From Natronosalvus caseinilyticus (GTDB lineage: Archaea > Halobacteriota > Halobacteria > Halobacteriales > Natrialbaceae), in the NCBI RefSeq assembly GCF_017357105.1, contig NZ_CP071596.1, positions 806,001-870,000 of the forward strand: a stretch of 64,000 nt of DNA, given 5' to 3'. This document shows, in pieces, positions 3,980 through 13,731 of the stretch (the first letter of the stretch is position 1; every line of letters begins with the position of its first letter). The position numbers and the translations under genes are program-made. Below the pieces are notes generated by a model, which was given only the letters and a program-made list of their open reading frames with translations, was not told the DNA's origin and did no database searches.

Positions 3980-4870
3980 CTAGACCGTCTCCATCTCGCG
4001 CTCGAGCTGGCGCAGGCTCTCGACCCGGCGCTCGGTCGATGGATGGGTCGAGAAGAGTCGACCGACGATGCCCGATTTCAGCGGGATGATGAAGAAGGCG
4101 TTCATCTCCGCCTCTTCGCGCATGTCCCTGTCGGGAACCTTGTCGATCTCGCCCGAAATCTTTAGCAACGCGGAGGCGAGCGCGGACGGTTTACCCGTGA
4201 TCGTCGCAGCACCCCGGTCGGCGGCGAACTCGCGGTACCGCGAGAGCGCCCGAATTAGCAGGTAACTCACGATCCAGACGACCAGCGAGACGACGATGGC
4301 GACGATCACGCCACCACCACCGCCGCGGCCGCGACCGTGGCCGCCGCCGAAGAAGGCGCCCCAGCGGACGATCATGAACGCGATCGTCGAGAGGAACGAG
4401 GCGATGGTCATCACCATCATGTCTCGATTCTTGACGTGGGCGAGCTCGTGGGCGAGGACGCCGTCGAGTTCGTCGCGGTCGAGCGTCCGCATCAGTCCTG
4501 TGGTGACGGCGACGGCGGCGTTCTTCTGGTTTCGCCCCGTCGCGAACGCGTTCGGTACTTTCGAATCGATGACGGCGACTTTCGGCTTCGGGAGGTCGGC
4601 CTGCTGGGAGAGGCGCTCTACGGCGCTGTGAAGCTGTGGGTACTCCTCGGCGGAGACTGTCTTCGCGCCCATCGTCTTGAGGGTGAGGGTATCGCTGAAG
4701 TAGTACTGTACCAGCGACATCCCACCGAAGAGCAGGCCGAAGATCAGCAGGTTCGCTCCGCCCGCGATGTACGCCGTCAGCACCCCTGCGAAGACGATGT
4801 ACAGGGCGAACAGCAGGAACATCGTGAGGAACATCCGAAACCGCAATCCCCAGTCCGGTTTCCAGTCCAT
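3980..4870 (-). CDS. htpX: HtpX-like membrane zinc metalloprotease (M48)
   Basis: A 296-residue integral membrane M48 protease for turnover of damaged membrane proteins. Two N-terminal membrane segments (about residues 12-55) precede the catalytic helix, whose HELAH motif lies in GVLAHELAHVKNRD. Two more hydrophobic segments flank a glycine-rich loop (GGGHGRGRGGGGG). The third zinc ligand is the glutamate in YREFAADRGA, as in the family. The C-terminus carries FSTHPSTERRVESL, also typical. The start MDWKPDWGLRFRMF at 4870 is preferred because the longer open frame upstream is basic and unlike the family. Confidence 0.9.
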   Translation of the reverse strand: MDWKPDWGLRFRMFLTMFLLFALYIVFAGVLTAYIAGGANLLIFGLLFGGMSLVQYYFSDTLTLKTMGAKTVSAEEYPQLHSAVERLSQQADLPKPKVAVIDSKVPNAFATGRNQKNAAVAVTTGLMRTLDRDELDGVLAHELAHVKNRDMMVMTIASFLSTIAFMIVRWGAFFGGGHGRGRGGGGGVIVAIVVSLVVWIVSYLLIRALSRYREFAADRGAATITGKPSALASALLKISGEIDKVPDRDMREEAEMNAFFIIPLKSGIVGRLFSTHPSTERRVESLRQLEREMETV

Positions 4871-5510
4871 ACACGAACAACGGACCGGGGGCGGATAAAT
4901 CCGCCGCGAACGCGCCTCGAGCGGGTGCCGGGCCCGGCGCTCCGTGCTCGCTCGTCTCGAGTCGCGCCTCGTGGGCACCTCCATCGAACTCCAGCGACGA
5001 CGCAGATTGCCGACGATATCGCTTCCTCGATACGCTTCGACGTCCAACACTCCCTCTTTCAAATGAGTCGCGAGTGCTCGAGCGGGTACGTCGAAGCACC
5101 GAGCGAGCGTTCCCAAACCCCTCTATTTCCCCTGGAAAGGCGAACACGTGGAGGCGACCACCGGTGTGGGCGCTCGAGCGTACGCCACGCGTCAGACGTC
5201 CGGTCTTCGCGTTCCACCGGAAACGTCAGACGAGCGTGAAATATGGCGTTCTACATGTTTGACGATCGATAGCACCACGATCGAAACCGACACCAGGTGG
5301 GGAGATCCGGCGTATCGCGCGAAACGCGCACTCACCGGAGACGAATTCCGTGTGCCCTGATAACACGATTCGCAAACCCCTGGTTTCGGGTGGAGTTCCC
5401 ACACGCTGTGACCGAACGGCCCGTCGAACCCCTCTATTTCCGGTGGAGGAAACGGACCGGCGTCGGCGACGAACGCGTCGTTTAACTCCCTCAGTCCCCA
5501 ACCACGGGAC
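4871..5510. other. Intergenic region with ORB-like repeats; candidate replication origin or Orc1/Cdc6 binding region
   Basis: No convincing gene in 640 nt. Three copies of a motif reading (on the minus strand) TCCAC-CGGAAA-NN-AGGGGTT occur at 5116-5138, 5374-5397 and 5426-5450. A fourth half-like copy (TTCCACCGGAAACG) lies in the opposite orientation at 5212-5225. Such G-tailed imperfect dyads match what I know of haloarchaeal origin recognition boxes. The segment between the inverted copies (5236-5373) is partly AT-rich (GAAATATGGCGTTCTACATG). No orc1/cdc6 gene is in the window, so origin function is inference. The region also supplies the NMD3 promoter. Confidence 0.5.
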
Positions 5511-6632
5511 ATGACCGATTCGCGTGCGTTCTGTCCCCGCTGTGGCGATCCGGTGCCGGAGCGGAGCGAAGGCGACGCGACGGACCCCCTTCGACCGGGG
5601 ACGGACGTCGACCTCTGTGACAGCTGTTACTTCGACGACTTCGAATTCATCGACGCGCCCGACCGGATCGACGTGCGCGTCTGTGCCCAGTGTGGGGCCG
5701 TTCACCGGGGCCGTCGCTGGGTCGACGTCGGCGCACAGGACTACACCGACGTCGCCATCGAGGAAGTGAGCGAGGCCCTGGCCGTCCACGTCGACGTCGA
5801 GGACGTCGCCTGGCAGGTCGAACCCGAGGAGGTCGGGCCGAACACGATCCGGATGCACTGTTACTTCACGGGGACGGTTCGCGGAACGCCCGTCGAGGAG
5901 CAGGTGATGATTCCCGTAAAGATCGCTCGCCAGACCTGTACCCGGTGTGGCCGCATCGCCGGGGACTACTACGCCAGCATCGTCCAGATCAGGGCCGAGG
6001 GTCGGACGCCCACGACGGAGGAACTCGAGCGGGCGAGAGAAATCGCCGAGACCATCGTCGCGGACATGGAGGCGACCGGGGATCGAAACGCCTTCATCAC
6101 CGAGACCACGGAGACCGACGACGGCCTCAACATGCGGGTTTCGACCAACAAGATCGGCAAGAAGATCGCGAACAAGATGGTCGAGGAGTTCGGCGGCACC
6201 GTCAACGACGCCGAAACCCTGGTGACCGAGGACGAGGACGGCAACGGGGTCTACCGCGTGACGTTCGCGGTCCGGCTCCCGCCGTACGTTCCCGGCGACG
6301 TGATCGACCTCGCGGACGACGACGAGGGGCCCGTCCTGGTCAGCAGCGCCCACGGCAACCTCAAGGGGATCCGATTGCGGACGGGCGAGCGCTACGAAGC
6401 GAGTTACGAGGAGGGGAACTCTCCCGAGGCCCGTAAACTCGGGGAGCGCCAGGACGCCGTCGAGGCGACCGTCGTCACGGTCGAGGACGAGCGCTCGATC
6501 CAGGTGCTCGACCCCGAGACCTACCAGGCGAAGACGATCTCTCGTCCCGAGTACGTCGACGCCGACGCCGACGAGGTGCCGGCACTGAAGAGTCGCGCTG
6601 GATTGCACATTTTGCCAGAGGACGATGAGTGA
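5511..6632 (+). CDS. nmd3: NMD3-family ribosomal large-subunit biogenesis protein
   Basis: A 373-residue archaeal NMD3-like protein; the eukaryotic homologue is the adaptor that matures and exports the 60S subunit. Archaea have no export, so a role in 50S assembly or stability is the likely function. The N-terminus holds paired zinc ribbons: CPRCG (residues 8-12), CDSC (about 36-39), CAQCG (about 58-62) and CTRCG (about 143-147). The NMD3 core follows, with FITETTETDDGLNMR, STNKIGKKIANKMVEEFGG and a C-terminal OB/SH3-like part. Its stop overlaps the start of the next gene, so the two may form an operon. Confidence 0.88.
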   Translation: MTDSRAFCPRCGDPVPERSEGDATDPLRPGTDVDLCDSCYFDDFEFIDAPDRIDVRVCAQCGAVHRGRRWVDVGAQDYTDVAIEEVSEALAVHVDVEDVAWQVEPEEVGPNTIRMHCYFTGTVRGTPVEEQVMIPVKIARQTCTRCGRIAGDYYASIVQIRAEGRTPTTEELERAREIAETIVADMEATGDRNAFITETTETDDGLNMRVSTNKIGKKIANKMVEEFGGTVNDAETLVTEDEDGNGVYRVTFAVRLPPYVPGDVIDLADDDEGPVLVSSAHGNLKGIRLRTGERYEASYEEGNSPEARKLGERQDAVEATVVTVEDERSIQVLDPETYQAKTISRPEYVDADADEVPALKSRAGLHILPEDDE

Positions 6633-7887: not shown

Positions 7888-8007
7888 CCCTGAAGGGCTC
7901 GGTATCCGTTACGTAGCGCGTGCGCCTTCTCGCCTCTATAAACCACCCATCAAACATTGGAAAATAGAAAATACTAAATAAAAATATTGATATGGAATCG
8001 AACATCC
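7888..8007 (+). promoter_or_regulatory. AT-rich promoter of the polymorphic toxin gene
   Basis: About 60 nt directly upstream of the toxin ATG (7945-8000) are strongly AT-rich, with ACTAAATAAAAATATTGATA. This contrasts with the GC-rich neighbours and fits an archaeal BRE/TATA promoter giving a short leader. No clear Shine-Dalgarno sequence is seen. Confidence 0.45.
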
Positions 8008-11000
8008 ATGGTGCACGTTGGATTAAGAGGGTGCAGGGGAGGATTGCTGGCAATCGTCCTTTCGATTATAATTGTAACGGGGGCTATTACGCCAGTCATC
8101 GCGGTCGACTCTTCGCACGAAGCGAATCGATCCGAAATCGGCGTTGACCGACCGGAAGCAATTCTGGAACGGCAAGAAGTCGACAACCTGACGGAGGGAA
8201 GTCCGACGCTTCAGAAGGTTTGGGCGCGGTTTATTCTCACGCAGGGGGTAGAGTCGAGTCTCGATTCCGACGCCGCGGCGCTCGACCACCTCAACGAATC
8301 GATGGAGTACACGTCTGGCCCGGCACAAGTATCCGACCCGGCGGCGTTCAACCACTCCGCTGCGGCCGTCGAATCGTTATCTTTGCAGGACAACTCTGAG
8401 ACCGACGAGCGGCGGATTCTGGCGGCCTATCTGATCGTGTCTGCCGACAACGAAACCGCCGCGAAGCAAATAGAGGACGCAAAGTGGGCGCTCGACCACA
8501 CAGGAGACGAACTCCACACTGGCACTGAACGAAGTGCGACCGCCCACGTACGGAACGCGGAACGCGCGTTCAATCGCGCACAGCGACGAATTGAGGACGC
8601 GGACGGGGACGGCTTCGAGGCGCAGGCGGACGCGATTCGCCAGTACCGGGTCGCGTGGATGCAAGCAACGAAGGCACTCGAGCGAATCGACGCCGAAATC
8701 CCGCCCGAGGTGACGATCGCCACTCGCGGCGACCCGCCGCGAAACGGAAGCGAACCGCTCGAAGGAGAGATACGGGGGACCGTCTTCGACGTTCGTCCGG
8801 AGACGCTCACCAACGCGACGGTCACGATTGGCGACGAAACGAGGACCGTTCCGATCGAGGCTAACGCCGGTCGAATGAACGCTACGTTCGCGACGAACGT
8901 CACGCTCGACGATCGGATCACGTCCGTCGAGGTCGAGGTCGTCGACGACGTCCCGAACCGCGGAAACGGCAGCGCGGTGCGAACCACAAAGCGCGGAAAG
9001 TCGGACCGAAAGAACGGAAAGAATCGCAACGGCAACGGTGCGCCACCCGGCAGTACGCAGTCAGATACCGACGTCGTTCTCTTCGATGGTGACGGCCTTC
9101 CGGATACGTACGAAATCGAGGTTGTCGGGACCGATCCTCAAGATCCCGATAGCGACACGCCGAACGTCGACCGCGATGTCGGCGACAACGGCGTTATCGA
9201 CGGCCTCGAGGATTTCGACGACGACGACGTGAGCAACTATCACGAAGGTCGGTTCGACACGGACCCGTTCGACCCTGACACCGACGATGACAGGCTTCCT
9301 GACTACTTCGAAATCCAGTACTCGGAACTCGACCAGACGAGCGCGGACACCAACGGCGACGGCGTCACGGACGCCGAGTGGGACGCCGACGACGACGGGT
9401 TGACCACCTACGACGAGTACGAGGCGGAGACTGACCCGTTCCGTGCAGATGCCGATCGAGACGAACTGAACGATAGCCGCGAACTGGAGATTGGGACCGA
9501 TCCGGCGGACCCCGACACTGACGACGATGGTCTGGATGACGGTGAAGAAATCGAACTGGGAACGGATCCGCTCGAAGTGGACTCGGACGGCAACGGGGTT
9601 GCGGACGGTGACGAGACGATCGAGACGACCGTCCGCGACGAGGAGACCAACGTTTCCCTGACGATGCGCGGATCGGGCGACGTGGCCTCCCAGATCGAGA
9701 TTACGCCGAAACCGTCGTACTTCGAGGGTGACGACGTCAGTGCCGGACCCACCGTTCGCGTCGTCAATCGGACCGACTTCACGAACGCAACCATCGAAAT
9801 CCCGATCGACGAGTCGGTTCCGGAGTCCGAATACGACGACCTCTCGGTCTTCAAATGGAGCGGGTCGGCGAACGAGACCTGGATTCCGGTCGAGTCGACG
9901 ATCGAGAACGGAACTGCACGTGCGACAGTCGACTCGTTCTCGTACTTCACGGTGCTCGACGCCGACGGGTGGGTGGATGCGACCCTGCTCGACGAGACCA
10001 GCGAGGAAGTCCCGCTCCAGGCCGGTTCGAACTTCTCGTGTAACGCCGCTTGCGAGGTCACGGATAACTCGACGCTCGTGTTGGGAGGCGAGCCGAACGC
10101 TCGAAAGATTACAGTCGAACAGGGAGCCGACAGCTTCGATGTCGTCCCACTGAGCAACGGACAGCGAATCGAGGAGTTCTACGATTACGAAAACGCCCAG
10201 ATCAACTCGCCGTTACCGATCGCCGAGAGCGACAAGAGTCAGCTCTTCTTCTGGTCCGGACCCGAGGGTCTAAGTCTGGTCCTCCTGCACGACAAGCCCA
10301 GCGACGGCTCCGGCGGCGCCGTTACGATGACCTTCGATGAACTCCCGACGGACCAGGGGAGATGGATCGTCAAAGACGACCCCGGTGATTACCGGCACGA
10401 CACGCGCTTCGACTGGGCATGGAATCGGATTAGGACTGATGGCGGCGTGTTCCGTGGAGGGCTCACGAATCAAACGGTGACGATCAACCCGGCGTTCAAC
10501 GACGAAGCGGCAAAATCTCCTCTCGATTACGGTGAACTGACGGACTGGCAGGTCCTGACGGGCCGAGCGACCGACCCGCGATCACACTCGCTGGAGATGG
10601 ACGAACCGGTACGAGTCCGTATACCTGAGGCACCCGCGACGAATGAATCAGGAGAAGCCGTCGGCGACTTCGGTAACGCGTCCGTAACCTACGATCTGAG
10701 CGACGGGACCGACGAGATTGCAGTCGCGTATCAAACCGAACAGACGAACGTCGACCCTAATGCGACGTTCGTCGCCACCGGTGCGAACGGAACGACAGTC
10801 ACCGAATCCCTGTCGATCGGGACGGTAGGGACCGTCAAGGAAGTGATCGATGTTTCCGCCCTCAGTGACGACGAAGCGACGCTGTCTCTCAGCGCAGACG
10901 GCGTCAACCTCAGAGCGCAATTGCTTACCACCAGTGCGGTCGACACCGACGGTGACGGAATCCCGGACGCGACCGAGCGGAAGGGATTCCTGACCCCGCG

Positions 11001-13731
11001 GGGGACGATTACGACCGATCCGTTCAACAGTGACACGGACGGTGACGGACTCAGTGACCGGGAAGAGATCGGCGAACCGACGAGTCTGAGCGACGTCGCC
11101 GAACGTCTCGAACCGGACAGCGGTGCGTCGGAGCGCCAGCAACGGCGGGCTCGAGCTCTCCTCGAAACGGTGGAGGCCGCAGGCTACGACACGAACTCGA
11201 CGAGAGGCGTCTACCTCAACCCCGCGAGCGATCCGACGAACATCGACTCAGATGGAGACGGTCTCGACGACCGGACCGAACGGGAGGGTGACCTCACGGT
11301 CGTTCGCACGACCAGCGTTAGCGAGACCGAGCGTGCGCTCGGAGGATCGGACCCCGAGACGCTAGCGAACGCCTACGAGACGTACGAGTCGACCAGCAAC
11401 CCGTGGAGCGTCGATACGGACGGCGACGGTCTCGGCGACGCTCGCGAGCAGGAACTCGCGACGGACCCGACCGGAAGCGACACCGATCGAGACGGTGTTT
11501 CCGATCGGGAGGAAGCCGAAGGTATCGGCGATCCGACGCTGTACGACGCCCAACCGCCGGAAATCGAGGTCGAACGCTCGGGATACCACATTCCGGCGAA
11601 GAGTCTCGATACCACGTACTGGGTACAGCTTCGTATTCACGACCCAGCGGGCGTCGATCGGGCCGCGTTGATCAAGGACGGAAACGAGGAGACGAGCGAA
11701 TCATACGGCGGCGGAGATACCGTCTACGACACGCTCGAGTTCACCGAGGAGTTCGCCGAATCGGAGACCGACGTCGATACCAGCAGCGTCAAGTCGACGT
11801 TCGTCACCTTCGGTTCGAAGGCCACGGAGACGATCGGCAGTGTCAGCGAATCTGTCGGCGACGTAACGGCCGGATCGACGGTCTACGTAGAGAGCAGCGA
11901 CGTGAACGACAACGGGGCTCGAGTCGTCGGCGTCCAGCGGGCGAACTTCTACAGCGAGGTCGCCGGTGACCTGTACACCGGAACGGTCGTCGATCAGGCG
12001 GTCGCCAGTGAGTTCGGCACGGTTTCGGGGCTCTCGTCGAGCCTCGGCGTCGCGTTCCAGGACGTCTCGCAGTTCATCGACGACCCGTACGAGGTGGTCG
12101 AAGGGACGAAGGCGCTGCTCGCGCTGTTGAGAGACGAACGACTCGGAGCAGCCGAGACGATCGTCCACGCCTACGCCCAGAACGTCGAGCAGACGCAAGC
12201 GCGGAACAACCCGTATGGTTCGCTCAACGAGAAGGAGCACCCGGCGTTGTACGACACGTTCGAGCGCAACTGGTACGAGGGGTATGCCGTCGGTTTCCTG
12301 GTGAAGACCGCACTCGGCGGCTCCGGCGCAAACGCTGCTAAGGGCACGATCAAGAGCACGAAGACCGCTCAGCAGGTCGGTTCGAAGCTCGTCGATACGA
12401 AAGCAGCGCGGGCGCTCTCGCGAGCCAGCGACGCGAAAGACGCTACGAAAGCCCGCGCGACTGCGCGGATCTTGCTCGCGGTCGACGGCGACGCCGCGGA
12501 AGCGATGCTGAGTCAGGCCGACACTGCTGGCGGGGCGTACAAGCTCTGGCGCCACCAGCGGACGATGGATGCGGACGTAGATGCGCTGTCCGACGTGCGG
12601 AAAGTGCGGCTCGGTCGGACGCTGCTTCGCGCGGATAGAGATGGGCAGTCGGCGATTCGGAAGATAGACCAGGATGCGCTGGACGACCTCGCGAGTCTGG
12701 ACGTCGACCCGGCCGTGCGAGCCGGACTCGCACCCAAATACGCCGAACTCGATGCGACGCGGCGCGCGCAACTGACGGAATCGATCTCGGGCAATTCGGC
12801 GGCTGCCGAGCGCGCCGCGCGACTCGAAACCGACGGCGTCCGCGACGCACTGGAGTTCTACTGCAGGAGTAGCTTCGCTCTACGAGTCCATGGCGCAGCG
12901 CCGTCTGGTAACGATCGATTCTATGCGGGGGGCACGGTTCGCGCTCGGAGCTGTACGATTCAGACAGATTTCGATTCGCCGATGTGGCGAGTTGAATCGT
13001 CGATCCGTGATTCTCTGGCGGATCGGTTATCTTCGGAGGAGTTCGCCCGACTCGTAAGCAGTGCCGTCGATTCGAAGGCGCTGAGGGCCACTGACGATCT
13101 GGATTCCATTTCGACGGTGAAGCGCGTCGACGGCGAACTCGTGATCGAGGGAGCAAAACACGACATCGACGTCGAACTGACGTACCCTGACGACGGGGGT
13201 GCCTTCTACACGAGCAACAGCGACTATTCGCTCGACAAAATCCGAGATATGAGGAATTCGCAAATCGGCGCCGACGTCGTCGAAGAGGAGATCGCACCGA
13301 AACTCGTCGAACGACGAGAGGGGTGGGAAGTCGTGTACGGAAAGCAGAAGGGTGGAACTGATAAGGGCATAGACCTCATCGCGAAAGACGCCGATGGCAA
13401 CTACGTGATTACCGAGGTCAAATTCACCGGCGAGGAAAAACGGATCAAAAAGAGCCGGTTTAACTCGGAGCGGACGATAGACGACGGAACGAAAGTCGAT
13501 CAGATGGAGGACGAGTGGATCGCGGATTCGTTCGCCAAAGATATCGACGAAGCCGATATGGATCTCGACGGAGAGTACAGTTCGGTGGAACGGGCGATCG
13601 AAACGGAAGATTACAAGAAAGAGGCGATCGTCGTACAGGACGCCTCAGTGTCCAGGACGATCGACAAGGATCTTCGGGAATTGGGTATGGACGACGTGCG
13701 TATCGTCCGAACTGGAGGTGTGACGGAATGA
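8008..13731 (+). CDS. Giant secreted polymorphic-toxin-like protein: signal peptide, calcium-type repeats, C-terminal PD-(D/E)XK nuclease
   Basis: A 1907-residue protein. A Sec-type signal peptide (hydrophobic [20 protein letters not shown], about residues 14-33) is followed by an ectodomain rich in N-x-S/T sites. TSP3-like Asp repeats ([12 protein letters not shown] type) lie at about residues 359-536 and 980-1180. A helical, partly hydrophobic region with [17 protein letters not shown] (about 1400-1550) may be a translocation or pre-toxin segment. The last ~160 residues form a restriction-endonuclease-like domain: a helix with [10 protein letters not shown], then GTDKGID (D1789) and ITEVKF (E1803, K1805). 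This matches polymorphic toxins, where a variable nuclease tip follows a conserved delivery trunk. The ATG at 8008 is preferred over a TTG at 7987. A partner gene overlaps its stop. No C-terminal sorting signal is seen. Confidence 0.78.

Follow-up and report, generated by a model that had tools for sequence, protein, structure and literature searches.

The spacer between htpX and nmd3 carries three full ORB boxes that, by sequence comparison, form a diverged, degenerate version of a composite element which recurs in relatives and combines an Orc1-type box with a phased GTCTGAC motif. We give a probability of roughly 45% to the reading that the cluster is a regulatory satellite of oriC1, that is, a site that would bind Orc1 without being an origin, similar to datA or oriC2D. 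This reading is supported by the type of the boxes, their conservation, the fixed spacing, a count of roughly one strong match in each genome, and the usual nearness to oriC1, as well as by the independence from particular neighboring genes and the missing AT-rich element.

The source genome comprises 4.24 Mb in two contigs (C1 and C2), and the window, i.e., the whole 64-kb stretch of DNA analyzed, corresponds to C1:806001-870000. The cluster is bordered, as the first-pass annotation had proposed, by htpX (3980-4870 of the window, minus strand, start codon taken at 4870), an ORF for a membrane metalloprotease, on the left and by nmd3 (5511-6632, plus strand), an ORF for an NMD3-family protein with orthologues in 47 haloarchaeal loci, on the right. 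The three good and one partial ORB-like repeats reported earlier are all present: box A (TCCAGGGGAAATAGAGGGG, 5118-5136) and box C (TCCACCGGAAATAGAGGGG, 5429-5447) match the pattern exactly, box B (TCCACCCGAAACCAGGGGT, 5376-5394) matches it with one mismatch, and a half ORB without the G-string (TTCCACCGGAAAC) lies at about 5213-5225. The three full boxes are all on the minus strand, and the half ORB, on the plus strand, is the sole box of opposite orientation, so the description of repeats in both orientations holds through the half box only. The 21-mer quoted for the minus strand at 5428-5448 exists as well, but one base away, at 5427-5447. The proposed match to the haloarchaeal Orc1 box type was borne out, the core TCCAnnnGAAAC..GGGG being common to the oriC1 and orc1-promoter boxes of relatives; the cluster has ORB boxes with a G-string, a feature of haloarchaeal orc1/cdc6-type origins.

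Two copies of GTCAGAC on the plus strand (GTCTGAC on the minus strand) accompany the boxes. One, at 5191-5197, stands at +73 from the start of box A, near the conserved +74 offset of GTCTGAC in relatives but inverted; the other, at 5225-5231, follows directly after the half ORB, at +107 from box A. In the sister genome G305 (L227), the half ORB and GTCAGAC (5190-5231 in the window) make up a 34-bp unit present as tandem repeats. Boxes A, B, and C are all retained in two sister species (G305 and G278), in which parts of the spacer drift. An Rfam search of the region returned no RNA family. Closer to nmd3, the plus-strand sequence TTTAAC (5481-5486, -30 to -25 from the ATG) is a likely TATA box for nmd3, whose transcript would then be leaderless; a stretch of the TTAAC type is conserved when relatives are aligned.

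We then scanned the whole genome (~4.2 Mb) with the exact ORB pattern TCCANNNGAAAYNNRGGGG, using the reversed pattern as a control. The exact pattern gave 8 matches and the control none. All eight fall within C1:755-992 kb, and two of them belong to the htpX-nmd3 cluster; boxes of this type are exceptional in the genome. When 2 mismatches were allowed, the window contained 3 matches against 3.9 expected, that is, no more than chance.

Conservation was determined at 47 nmd3 loci of named haloarchaea. Boxes were found upstream of nmd3, on the minus strand relative to it, in 42 of these, the exceptions being two Haloarchaeobius, one Halarchaeum, Natrinema versiforme, and Natrinema ejinorense; htpX was upstream of nmd3 in 45. 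The spacing between boxes ranged from about 100 to 250 bp, reaching 770 bp in one locus (L085). A fixed position of the boxes relative to htpX or nmd3 was not kept across species, in which insertions and relocation separate them: in Natrialba and Natronococcus inserted DNA puts 1.5 to 3 kb between the boxes and nmd3, in Natrinema gari an insertion of several kilobases parts the boxes from htpX, and two Natrinema species, N. versiforme and N. ejinorense, retain the element at a site apart from htpX and nmd3, which in N. ejinorense is next to orc1.

When relatives are aligned, GTCTGAC repeats come after box A and a TCAGANNNTGAGAA-like semi-palindrome after box B; in the window, the semi-palindrome after box B is degenerate and lies on the plus strand. 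Of 69 boxes, 30 have GTCTGAC at an offset of exactly +38, where about 0.007 would be expected from a background of ~1e-4 per position; because the species are related, the figure is not an independent-trial probability. Further peaks of GTCTGAC were seen at +63 and +74. A search of 391 genomes of the class for the box plus 19 bases plus GTCTGAC, with up to 2 mismatches, matched 112 genomes, mostly once per genome, and the reversed control gave almost nothing. There was usually one match in members of the window's family (f1); matches were also found in genera g32, g45, and g62 of a second family (f4), in their case with a pattern derived from f1, and some of the two-mismatch matches outside these two families look like chance. 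In f4 the element adjoins genes other than htpX and nmd3, and in g32 and g62 it lies between convergent genes. In a sequence-profile search, most f1 genomes had a single strong match over the full length; weaker, partial matches also appeared, as they should, given that every ORB scores to some extent. The window's own copy scored only 11.8 bits and has no GTCTGAC at +38, a motif absent at that offset also in the close sister species. A limited literature search found no earlier description of the GTCTGAC composite.

The source genome has several orc1/cdc6 genes. The earlier statement that no orc1 lies in the window is literally true, although a paralogue at C1:803294-804379 sits just outside, 1.6 kb beyond the left edge and 6.7 kb from box A. 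We rejected this gene as an explanation of the cluster: no ORB-like repeats were found beside it, and among the 47 loci a close homologue (69% identity) occurs near nmd3 only in Halarchaeum, where the boxes are absent, so the presence of the gene does not follow that of the boxes. In all, orc hits were near nmd3 in 3 of the 47 loci, that of Halarchaeum being one; in relatives with the boxes, as in the window, these do not adjoin an orc gene. The protein IFENKEVLRPSYTPHELPHR... encoded at C1:990059-991642 (L057) is what we take to be Orc1-A, the conserved initiator of oriC1, and its boxes also point there. Since several other orc genes examined carry adjoining repeats that differ in sequence from the boxes of the cluster, the latter belong, by their sequence, to the Orc1-A/oriC1 type, and we infer that they would be specific for Orc1-A. 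Contig C2 (230 kb; L063, L064, and L065) holds several orc1/cdc6 genes with different repeat families of their own, and one orc1/cdc6 match on it has an in-frame TAG.

The oriC1 core of the source genome was recognized at C1:755210-755541 (L050), outside the window and ~56 kb from the cluster, by features common to relatives, namely, inverted ORBs ~313 to 337 bp apart, GGGGTGGGGG strings, and a CTAGTAA-rich stretch; here, too, inverted ORBs with long G-strings surround an AT-rich, CTAGTAA-rich stretch. In most of the 28 genomes examined, orc1-A is preceded by a box at about -32 and by boxes carrying GGGGTGGGGG strings. The inverted pair of oriC1 is 236 kb from orc1-A in the source genome, and in four congeners the corresponding distance is ~195 kb (G305), ~206 kb (G278), ~147 kb (G074), and ~1.35 Mb (G073). 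Core and gene are likewise separated in N. ejinorense. This distance of 0.15 to 1.35 Mb in the window's genus goes against the usual rule that an origin and its initiator gene lie together; since oriC1 is apart from orc1 here, the initiator must act in trans, and C1:755210-755541 is a better case of an origin without a neighboring orc1 than is the htpX-nmd3 cluster. Two Orc1-type boxes in inverted orientation, with a spacing of 57 bp, were also observed at C1:948233-948308 (L054), within a predicted coding region resembling that of the PolD small subunit (a candidate identity), and the same 57-bp spacing recurs near orc1 in many relatives.

The distance of the composite element from the origin was taken from matches sharing one contig. 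It was usually 50 to 290 kb from orc1 or the oriC1 core, but only ~4 kb in two g45 genomes and 1.2 kb in G033, and 574 kb from orc1 in the outlier G071. In G073 orc1 is ~1.49 Mb from the element, but the oriC1 core is at a distance of 141 kb. The nearness is partly inherited synteny, the species not being independent.

The designation of the cluster as a candidate replication origin found little support: its boxes are real, but they are not accompanied by an inverted pair of full ORBs, an AT-rich stretch, or an adjacent cognate orc1/cdc6 gene. All the full boxes are direct (minus here, and minus near nmd3 in relatives), their G-strings are short, no CTAGTAA repeats were found at the cluster, and the nearest orc gene, 6.7 kb off, has no ORB repeats of its own; at oriC1, in contrast, the boxes are inverted and the G-strings long. 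The richest 60 bp of the cluster has 53% AT, and 40 to 60% in ten relatives, compared with 63 to 72% in the CTAGTAA-rich stretch of ten oriC1 cores. It is nevertheless conceivable, if rather unlikely, that the region is a second origin, minor or dormant, on which Orc1-A acts in trans. Boxes of the Orc1-A type do flank an intergenic, conserved spacer on both sides, and the separation of oriC1 from orc1 in the window's genus implies action in trans; moreover, the existence of origins away from orc genes is a possibility left by Wu et al. 2012 (PMC3528665), and the orc-free ORB region oriC10 (pFJ6) replicates autonomously in Natrinema J7 (PMC5350488). Besides the AT content, the direct boxes, and the lack of a long G-string and of CTAGTAA repeats, the variable spacing of the boxes speaks against a second origin, as does the GC skew, which in 20-kb samples along the chromosome showed no usable extremum at the cluster, nor, it should be said, at oriC1. 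Natrinema sp. J7 has two predicted origins, oriC3 and oriC10, that resemble the cluster in being ORB regions without an adjacent cdc6 (about 1.2 kb, 52.7 to 56.4% GC; PMC5350488). The pFJ6 forward primer matched 0 of four genomes, and the published J7 primers gave no match to the nmd3 locus of Natrinema gari.

That Orc1 controls htpX and/or nmd3 through the cluster as an operator seems unlikely. The boxes do lie in a divergent promoter region, with ~34 bp between the end of box C and the likely TATA box of nmd3 downstream of it, and the box at about -32 in the orc1 promoter is consistent with autoregulation; however, insertions part the boxes from nmd3 or htpX in Natrialba, Natronococcus, and N. 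gari, and the element is found away from htpX and nmd3 in two Natrinema species, and in f4 also between genes that converge. Independence from neighbors, together with the roughly single strong match in each genome, for the most part near oriC1, and two kinds of motif at a rigid spacing, would also suit a chromosome-organizing or segregation site near the origin that binds several proteins, Orc1-A among them. We regard such a site as quite improbable, with no link to any known segregation gene seen and no GTCTGAC-binding factor to point to. Very improbable, in our estimate, is a decaying relic, in which the boxes are left with no present function in the window's species: the composite is indeed degenerate there and in the close sister species, with no GTCTGAC at +38, but all three boxes have been retained in two sister species even though the spacer has drifted in parts. 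The satellite reading has counts against it as well. Against the 11 ORBs of oriC2D, two or three boxes would be a small number for titration, the composite is degenerate in the very species of the window (11.8 bits, with GTCTGAC at +38 missing), and the evidence of nearness to oriC1 is lessened by inherited synteny and by outliers such as G071. The f4 instances, moreover, were found with a pattern derived from f1.

If the cluster is a satellite of oriC1, Orc1-A would bind its boxes, and a second protein would presumably bind GTCTGAC, which in relatives is rigidly coupled (38 bp) to one box. The bound complex might titrate the initiator or alter its activity and could in this way tune the firing of oriC1, as datA and DARS do for DnaA in E. 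coli and oriC2D does for Cdc6E. The likeness to datA/DARS, which lies in initiator boxes off the origin combined with a site for a second protein, is an analogy only, DnaA being unrelated to Orc1; datA is a locus of DnaA initiator boxes away from the origin (as cited in PMC3936714). In Haloarcula hispanica, the separate ORB-rich region oriC2D restrains oriC2, likely by titration of Cdc6E (PMC3936714). The cluster, if it is not itself an origin, as seems probable, resembles oriC2D as a group of ORBs proposed to act on an initiator, but the 11 ORBs of oriC2D come immediately after the cdc6E gene that belongs to it (PMC3936714), while the cluster has 2 or 3 boxes, does not lie beside an orc gene, and in relatives includes a second motif. 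With the orc1/cdc6-A-linked oriC1 of haloarchaea it shares the core box and, presumably, Orc1-A as the reader; oriC1 differs in its inverted boxes, GGGGTGGGGG strings, and AT-rich CTAGTAA stretch, whereas the cluster has direct boxes and short strings, with phased GTCTGAC added in relatives.

A more general proposal, which we advance tentatively and hold to be possible but doubtful, is that the conserved haloarchaeal cis element (an Orc1-A box plus rigidly phased GTCTGAC, with roughly one strong match in a genome, mostly not far from oriC1) would be the archaeal counterpart of datA/DARS and regulate the initiator from afar, with the cluster of the window as a diverged copy. What limits origin firing in archaea is poorly known, and an element of initiator boxes that is conserved, yet not evidently an origin and not linked to any one gene, offers a defined deletion target for the study of archaeal initiator control.

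Elsewhere in the window, positions 7987-13731 encode a predicted protein of 1,914 amino acids in whose translation acidic DxDxD repeats can be recognized by eye; its C-terminal part, judged in the same way, may be nuclease-like.
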